Below, piece by piece: positions 1,398 through 52,350 of a stretch of 64,000 bases of DNA. The notes beneath the pieces are model-generated. The model searched no databases and was not told the DNA's origin. It was given only the letters and a program-made list of their open reading frames with translations. The position numbers and the translations under genes were made by a program. Each line of letters begins with the position of its first letter. Position 1 is the first letter of the stretch. Origin of the DNA: an uncultured Clostridia bacterium (GTDB lineage: Bacteria > Bacillota > Clostridia > Oscillospirales > Acutalibacteraceae); NCBI GenBank assembly GCA_945948515.1, contig CAMFBH010000007.1, positions 1 through 64,000 on the forward strand, in the 5' to 3' direction.

Positions 1398-1585
1398 CAG
1401 CAAGCCAAATGACTTGCTGTTTTTGGTGCGGGTAACAGGACTTGCCGTCTGCTTCGGCTTCGCCTTGCATACTTATGGCTCGGCGACCGTTGCAAAGCAA
1501 CAGTACCCGCCTCACCGCTCTTCGCTAAAAACAGTCCACCGGACTGTTTTATTAACGCTCAGACCTTCACAGCTTCAAGTGCTGT
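1398..1585. repeat. Duplicated tRNA-Leu 3' end joined to a tRNA-like repeat unit
   Basis: Bases 1421-1444 are an exact 24-base copy of 1612-1635, the 3' end of tRNA-Leu including its encoded CCA. As at the real gene, this copy is followed (minus strand) by a terminator-like hairpin (1398-1404 with 1413-1419, then TTTT). The copy begins GCGGGTA at 1428, and a matching TACCCGC sits at 1504-1510, an 83-base span close to tRNA length. Further right are a perfect 10-base hairpin (1528-1537 with 1541-1550, loop ACC) and, at 1569-1585, ACAGC-TTCAAGT-GCTGT, which has the exact shape of a T-arm. The span can be read as an open frame on the plus strand, but it has no ribosome binding site and no protein-like sequence. 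It may be an attachment-site scar or a tRNA-associated mobile repeat. Confidence 0.65.
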
Positions 1586-1590
1586 TAAAT

Positions 1591-1613
1591 AAAAAAGCAC
1601 CCAATGGGTGCTT
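1591..1613 (-). terminator. Terminator of tRNA-Leu
   Basis: Eight-base perfect stem (1595-1602 with 1606-1613), 3-base loop, then a run of T on the minus strand, directly after the encoded CCA of tRNA-Leu. Confidence 0.8.
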
Positions 1614-1614
1614 T

Positions 1615-1697
1615 TGGTGCGGGTAACAGGACTTGAACCTGCACGGTCTCCCACAAGATCCTAAATCTTGCGTGTCTGCCAATTCCACCATACCCGC
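1615..1697 (-). tRNA. tRNA-Leu, anticodon TAG
   Basis: The acceptor strands GCGGGTA and TACCCGC pair perfectly, with discriminator A and CCA encoded. The anticodon stem CAAGA/TCTTG encloses the loop TTTAGGA, giving anticodon TAG (reads CUA and probably other CUN codons). The T-arm is GCAGG-TTCAAGT-CCTGT, and the D-arm carries the class II TGGCAGAC motif. The variable arm is about 11 bases. The gene starts 3 bases after the comFC stop codon with no room for a separate promoter, so it is probably transcribed from the competence operon and trimmed out. Confidence 0.96.
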
Positions 1698-52122: not shown

Positions 52123-52350
52123 AAAATAAAAAAGCCTTCGCCTCAATGAGACGAAAGCTGAATTTCGCGGTACCACTCAAATTGCACAATTGTGCCACTC
52201 AAATCTTTAACGCAGATATACGGGATAGGCTACTTGATTTCACACATCCGGCTCCTAAGCTACCTTCTTTTGCTTGCTCTGCCGGCTTTCACCAAACGCC
52301 GACTCTCTGAAAGATTGGGCAAAATACTCCTCTTATTCACAGCCTTTTTG
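52123..52350 (-). promoter_or_regulatory. T-box leader of valS, specifier GUA (Val)
   Basis: On the minus strand the T-box core GAGTGGTACCGCG is at 52166-52178 and a terminator hairpin plus T run at 52123-52160. Upstream the stem I parts are readable: GAGAGTCGG, GGTGAAAGCCGG, and GAAGGTAGCTTAGGAGCC, where GTA at 52261-52263 stands in the specifier position and is a valine codon. Uncharged tRNA-Val would pair with GTA and the T-box and favour readthrough into valS-folC. Confidence 0.93.

Follow-up and report, generated by a model that had tools for sequence, protein, structure and literature searches.

In the 64-kb window analysed here (the whole stretch of contig under study), the 3′ end of a tRNA-Leu gene is present twice, and the question raised by this locus is what the short DNA between the two copies is, and how it came to end in a piece of the gene beside it. 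Twenty-four nucleotides at 1421–1444 are repeated exactly at 1612–1635, at a spacing of 191; 16-mers repeated within 500 nt occur at two places in the window, of which this pair is one. An earlier note on this DNA had described the duplication, with a terminator behind each copy, correctly. It had offered two explanations: a scar of integration at the tRNA 3′ end, or a tRNA-associated mobile repeat that copies part of its host.

Anatomy of the unit behind tRNA-Leu

Read along the minus strand, the tRNA gene is followed by a first terminator, an inverted copy of the T-arm region, two hairpins, a direct copy of the tRNA end and a second terminator (Table 1). The perfect hairpin and the sequence with T-arm geometry that had been pointed out earlier correspond to the central hairpin and the inverted T-arm, respectively. 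The inverted T-arm is complementary to the tRNA-Leu T-arm region at 16 of 18 positions, and its two changes preserve a small hairpin of its own. The outer stem flanking the central hairpin is variable yet complementary. Folding of the 191-bp unit was better than that of all 200 shuffles on both strands (z −4.2 and −3.7).

Table 1. Features of the tRNA-Leu locus in minus-strand order; positions are those of the window.
Feature	Positions	Strand	Basis or remark
tRNA-Leu (anticodon TAG), host gene	1615–1697	−	ARAGORN, Rfam
Whole unit, CCA to CCA, 191 bp, gene-free	1424–1614	−	
Terminator 1, immediately behind tRNA-Leu	1593–1615	−	Inverted repeat and T-run
Inverted copy of host T-arm region, near end of unit	1570–1587	−	
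Central hairpin AAAACAGTCC-GGT-GGACTGTTTT, perfect 10 bp	1528–1550	−	Used to collect relatives
Second body hairpin (GGCGGGTAC...GGTCGCC)	1482–1511	−	Source of the coincidental "acceptor" GCGGGTA
Direct copy of tRNA-Leu 3′ end, nt 56–76 with CCA (21 nt), far end of unit	1424–1444	−	
Terminator 2, after the direct copy; sequence unlike terminator 1	1394–1423	−	Inverted repeat

The unit contains no gene, its sole reading frame being one of 81 codons that crosses it on the opposite strand. The nearby excisionase-like gene, which had been cited in favour of a scar, was not found next to the unit; the adjoining gene (493–1302) matches LytTR (PF04397), and the neighbours in the window are a LytTR protein and a phosphoribosyltransferase-domain protein. 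No integrase was seen inside or beside the Leu repeats, or among the 25 commonest of 56 Pfam families of flanking ORFs in relatives, and no full integrated element was seen between the two 24-nt repeats. Elsewhere in the window lies a T-box leader (52144–52349, minus strand, 147 bits), which is unconnected with the unit.

The earlier note had also described an 83-base span closed by GCGGGTA and TACCCGC, taken as an acceptor pairing and as a sign of something more specific than an att scar. The two sequences are present, at 1428 and 1504–1510, but their acceptor meaning does not survive comparison. A tRNA gene, pseudogene or tRNA-like gene over the span is rejected because tRNA-Leu itself is called by both ARAGORN and Rfam, and the span by neither. 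The partner of the supposed acceptor sits in a conserved body hairpin: among the matches listed, GGCGGGTAC was found in 12 named units, next to Ser, Leu, Pro, Arg, Met, Ala and Lys tRNAs, and none of these 12 hosts has a TACCCGC acceptor strand. GGCGGGTAC therefore belongs to the unit body, and the closure is a coincidence between that body and tRNA-Leu.

Relatives and their matched ends

The block is not unique to the Leu locus; the search beside other tRNA genes that had been proposed revealed its recurrence, with flanks matching the respective tRNA. In the same genome, the unit body recurs on another contig (91% identity over 121 nt) behind a tRNA that is cut by the contig start and reads, from its anticodon loop CCA, as tRNA-Trp. 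The far end of this unit is a Trp tail and its near end an inverted T-arm, and a second, different unit, likewise ending in the Trp tail, lies between the tRNA and the Leu-type body. Among the 35 tRNA contexts scanned in this genome, some of which stop at contig edges, five have a direct copy that is 12 nt or longer (Ser-GGA, Thr-GGT, Val-TAC, Arg-CCG and Leu-TAG), with Trp in addition, and Leu-CAG has an inverted T-arm and a degenerate copy. A complete, hairpin-free genome of the same order (G067) gave none in 37 tRNA contexts, its two raw matches being neighbouring tRNA genes.

More broadly, the unit body was matched in 21 of 98 related genomes (E ≤ 0.001), and the hairpin AAACAGTYC-NNN-GRACTGTTT is present in 36 of 148 genomes, with no match to a reversed control pattern. 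When named genome contigs were scanned for a 30-nt central-hairpin pattern (CGTTAAGAAAACAGTYC-NNN-GRACTGTTTT), at least 120 stretches were found; judged by title, those listed came mainly from Oscillospirales-type MAGs, a few being from Bifidobacterium, alphaproteobacteria and Treponema. At least 133 hairpin matches were listed, and the 100 with at least 600 nt upstream were used for context; among these, a same-strand tRNA or tmRNA stood upstream in 72, the end of rpsI in 6, and neither in 22. The 64 first units cover at least 13 host classes (Arg, Leu, Ser, Lys, Pro, Thr, Met, tmRNA, Ala, Glu, Gly, Asn and Gln). Thirteen units from different tRNAs and genomes have hairpins in common. In Ruminococcus sp. 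FMBCY1, tRNA-Arg carries three units (L111). A description of these Oscillospirales units was not found in open-licence PMC text.

How closely the ends follow the host was measured on 63 first units at tRNAs, one of the 64 (L131, not ending in CCA) being left out. The direct copy had a median score of 18 against its own tRNA and 6 against other tRNAs, and the host was strictly best, beating every tRNA of other amino acids, in 55 of the 63 among the matches listed; the other eight include copies cut by contig ends and units with no copy. Direct copies start mostly at nt 56, 59 or 63 (at nt 59 in 15 of 55) and most end at nt 76, again among the matches listed. The inverted copy, which mostly runs from nt 51/54 to 62–68, had medians of 14 for the host and 7 for others, the host being strictly best in 34 (63 units, among the matches listed), and is weaker evidence of host matching because T-arms are alike. 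In many units an extra short segment past the inverted T-stem varies, as judged by eye, with the T-stem of the host (ACCC..GGGT, ACTC..GAGT, ACCT..AGGT).

The mismatches within the tRNA copies are unevenly placed. Among the matches listed, 12 of 168 cells differ in CCA and 3 of 560 in nt 64–73 (Fisher p 4e-6), a contrast that may be exaggerated because the 56 of 63 units counted, those with a recognisable copy, favour an intact core. Where a CCA-adding enzyme works, a tRNA gene can do without a CCA of its own. The gathering of mismatches in CCA fits displaced genuine tRNA ends.

RNAalifold on the 13 units gave a closing stem, made by the inverted and direct copies, and four hairpins, and compensatory changes occur in the variable stem that flanks the central hairpin. 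However, in the 52 of 63 units kept for a comparison of the two arms (weak or truncated copies left out; among the matches listed), the arms agreed against the tRNA in 0 of 780 aligned cells. Covariation of the closing stem therefore gives no independent support, since both arms simply match the tRNA, and the idea that pairing between the inverted and direct repeats is kept for its own sake was rejected. Wobble asymmetry did not discriminate between RNA and DNA readings.

Terminators were compared in the 47 of 64 units that are complete, weak or truncated copies being left out. Although the tRNA ends agree, the terminators of the two sides are unrelated in 32 of these 47 (among the matches listed), as expected if unit and host bring one terminator each. 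In the other 15 the two are near-identical, some of these units being tandem arrays (among the matches listed), which fits local duplication equally well. The duplicated stretch includes the terminator in some loci, and in three (L091, L106 and L127) the terminator after the last copy is followed by part of the inverted T-arm again; there the repeat can extend from the T-loop as far as the inverted T-loop.

Units at the 3′ end of rpsI, identified by its C-terminal peptide, occur at seven loci (L047, L051, L058, L103, L105, L039 and L046). The element is enclosed by the gene end on one side and a repeat of that end on the other, the hairpin is oriented opposite to the gene, and a second QFSKR-stop end is present in 5 of the 7. 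One of the five measurable copies is identical to the gene end; the other four differ by 6 nt in all, each of the 6 synonymous, where about 10 of 54 possible single changes at this end would be, although two of the four share one change and are possibly not independent. Differences that are exclusively synonymous make both ends look like once-real gene ends.

These results bear on a reading in which the ends are fresh copies: the body would move by an RNA-based, ssDNA-based or template-switching process that tailors its ends at each landing, the local tRNA tail being copied directly and the T-arm in inverse. Such copying would account for direct and inverted copies that both follow the host (0 of 780 cells against the tRNA), for the many copies that run exactly from nt 59 to 76 (15 of 55 start there among the matches listed; in E. 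coli likewise, with 18–19 nt), and for the stretches that continue through the terminator. Neither the synonymous-only rpsI differences nor the unrelated terminators of 32 of the 47 units (among the matches listed) would be expected of fresh copies, copies that lack CCA fit a displaced native end better, and no reverse transcriptase or recurrent transposase was found in the flanks (48 ORFs, 25 commonest of 56 families). Host copying is an unlikely explanation.

Comparison with known systems

The closest likeness in architecture is with the RtT repeats of E. coli (RF00391), which stand behind tRNA-Tyr, -Lys and -Arg and measure about 180 bp at most. Rfam finds four in K-12 at tyrTV, five in the lysT operon and one after lysV, that at tRNA-Arg being below threshold, and copy number at the Tyr locus ranges from 0 to 4 among the records listed. 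The far end of RtT is a host-matched copy of 18–19 nt (tRNA nt 58/59–76), with the junction in the T-loop as in the Oscillospirales units, and its near end is, by eye, a short inverted copy (GGGGAAGGAT at Tyr, GGGAGGAT at Arg). RtT bodies have GTTGC..GCAAC in common and end in GAGT or GAGTA before the host tail; they differ from the body of the window unit. RtT also has no terminator between tRNA and unit, where the window unit has terminator 1, and in K-12 it is overlapped by the annotated small protein gene tpr, whereas the window unit is gene-free. The RF00391 model found nothing in the unit's own genome (E up to 1), in the window (gathering threshold) or in seven other loci (E up to 1); Rfam at that last cutoff gave RtT at the E. 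coli locus alone, its other hits being tRNAs and sub-threshold matches. Rossi et al. (2016) report that RtT occurs close to tRNA-Asn and tRNA-Lys of Actinobacillus, citing Bosl and Kersten (1991), and treat RtT as an expressed RNA (PMC4986893).

It is the reported expression of RtT, together with the shared architecture and the covarying stems, that suggests a functional RNA, released from the tRNA transcript and with its ends kept tRNA-matched for processing. In the window and most relatives, however, a terminator separates the tRNA from the unit, and covariation in the closing stem is fully explained by the match of each arm to the tRNA. The scattered occurrence (5 of 35 contexts plus Trp in its own genome, 0 of 37 in G067) and the failure of RF00391 to match in that genome also count against this role, which appears very improbable.

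A second likeness is with the microCIMEs of Streptococcus salivarius, described as gene-free units of 130–220 bp that lie between att-like repeats at the 3′ ends of conserved genes, rpsI among them, and form tandem arrays (PMC7563491). The Oscillospirales unit has att-like direct repeats at both ends, within a gene 3′ end, and likewise lacks any recombination, mobilisation or cargo gene in its 191 bp, with no integrase among the flanking-ORF families of relatives (25 commonest of 56); at 191 bp it falls within the same size range, as do 43 of the 47 complete relatives among the matches listed. In contrast to the unit, microCIMEs have no common structured body and no inverted T-arm as far as that text reports, and it describes them only beside ICEs or IMEs, as decayed remnants; the Oscillospirales unit adjoins a gene, with no ICE.

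By analogy, the unit could be the leftover of a larger integrative element that has lost its middle, i.e., an att scar or micro-CIME. The agreement in size and gene absence just described would be natural for such a remnant, and true integrative elements do exist at such sites. Independent deletions would nevertheless leave unlike bodies, while 13 units share hairpins. Furthermore, the central-hairpin pattern had 1 match in 2.9 million viral contigs, and one unit searched against plasmids and phages had none. A phage origin was rejected on these results, and no parent ICE or IME was found in these searches. Decay is accordingly regarded as distinctly unlikely. The scar proposed earlier is right insofar as the flanks behave as attachment-site copies at a gene 3′ end, but a block that recurs is not a plain scar; the mobile repeat proposed beside it is partly upheld, by recurrence at other tRNA genes with flanks matching each, and loses its acceptor argument.

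Larger tRNA-borne elements and transposon-derived repeats offer more partial parallels. A regenerated gene and a displaced 3′ fragment mark the ends of islands found by Islander (PMC4383910), and Ms6 integrates with the T-loop as its crossover site, an altered attP core redirecting it to another tRNA-Ala (PMC1762012). The unit resembles these islands and prophages in both respects and differs from them in having neither the integrase nor the kilobases of DNA that they carry. REP/RAYT repeats and mini-elements derived from IS200/IS605 are short mobile hairpins without genes. Repeats of this kind would be expected to flank the gene of their cognate Y1 transposase, and at 20 Y1 loci (PF01797) no unit hairpin was found within 2.5–4.3 kb. 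A RAYT as mobiliser was thus rejected (0 of 20). Weak Y1-transposase genes seemed commoner in genomes with the hairpin, an impression confounded by kinship, and RAYT-like Y1 genes in the unit's own genome (L224 and similar, contig C8) seemingly carry REP-like insertions, with the tRNA-unit hairpin absent nearby.

Probable integration at gene 3′ ends

The unit is real and recurrent, and is best read as one of the RtT/microCIME kind, neither a plain scar nor a tRNA-like gene. On balance it is probably a mini integrative unit of some 190 bp that lacks genes and sits in the tRNA-Leu 3′ end, supplying the gene with a 3′ end and displacing the old one. A unit bringing its own 3′ gene end and terminator would enter the host gene by recombination, which in tRNA genes would take place in the T-loop or close to it. 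The incoming end would then complete the gene, and the original end, together with the terminator belonging to it, would be pushed to the far side, as happens with genomic islands in tRNA genes. The likeliest agent would be a tyrosine recombinase acting in trans, and the conserved hairpins may be recombinase recognition or folding signals. Tandem arrays could be the product of successive insertions or of recombination between direct copies. For the matching ends, alternatives would be re-tailoring during or after insertion, or recombination through the conserved T-arm that keeps the local tail.

Besides the host-matched ends, the unrelated terminators, the synonymous rpsI differences and the mismatches in CCA, further observations support integration. 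One body stands at tRNA-Leu and tRNA-Trp in one genome with ends that differ per host. In two congeners, the tRNA-Ala site is occupied in one (G082) and empty in the other (G131; 89% complete, 7% contamination), where the neighbour reads as a ribosomal-protein gene; the latter genome has this type of body, with different ends, behind tRNA-Trp and one more tRNA. E. coli MMC-J-0085 has no RtT at the Tyr locus; there the flank that follows the final K-12 copy adjoins the tRNA immediately. Deletion between direct repeats can also produce such a pattern of presence and absence. Against integration stand the inverted T-arm, which has no role in the classical scheme, the length of 190 bp, very short for a DNA circle, and the 22 of 100 hairpin matches (among the matches listed) away from tRNA and rpsI. 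A classical integrase unit, moreover, carries the end of one tRNA, whereas one hairpin family is found here at 13 or more host classes.

The search for a recombinase is likewise against integration. Pfam families were assigned in 48 of 70 flanking ORFs of named loci, those left out being mainly shorter and many overlapping the tRNA or the unit; among the 25 commonest of the 56 families there was no integrase or transposase, two IstB/DnaC-like ATPases being the only exception, and no circular form of the unit was seen. In favour of integration, two different phage-type tyrosine integrases (PF00589) lie directly upstream of a copy of a tRNA 3′ end that is followed by a unit (L013 and L014, in G066 and G090), which indicates that such ends serve as attachment sites.

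The integrative reading, if it holds, ties together two obscure observations, in that RtT repeats and streptococcal microCIMEs may both belong to a single, widespread type of very small integrative unit found at the 3′ ends of genes. These units leave copies of attachment sites beside tRNA genes and would be missed by island finders that seek large inserts with an integrase. It is a more tentative proposal, and a doubtful one at present, that they form a distinct class of gene-less mobile units over the Oscillospirales, mirrored by RtT and found behind tRNA, tmRNA and rpsI genes, with a direct end copy and an inverted T-arm at each site. If true, this would imply a system of recombination or copying, not described so far, by which the ends of an element are refitted to each target. 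How one body gains ends matching many different tRNAs is a question that can be tested.

Several related elements were observed alongside these units. The AAACAGTCC hairpin also occurs in intergenic repeats off tRNAs, with other flanks, in three genomes (G034, G115 and G089, the last with 44 hairpins; L244–L251). At L122, a hairpin element at a gene end is flanked by an inverted copy of the same end (TAAATTCTGATTTA / TAAATCAGAATTTA). A second body family, in which a hairpin lies between GGCGCAGCGGTC and GGGCACCGCAAGAG, is present at tRNA ends in two genera (L002, 120–260; L014, about 1300–1500).
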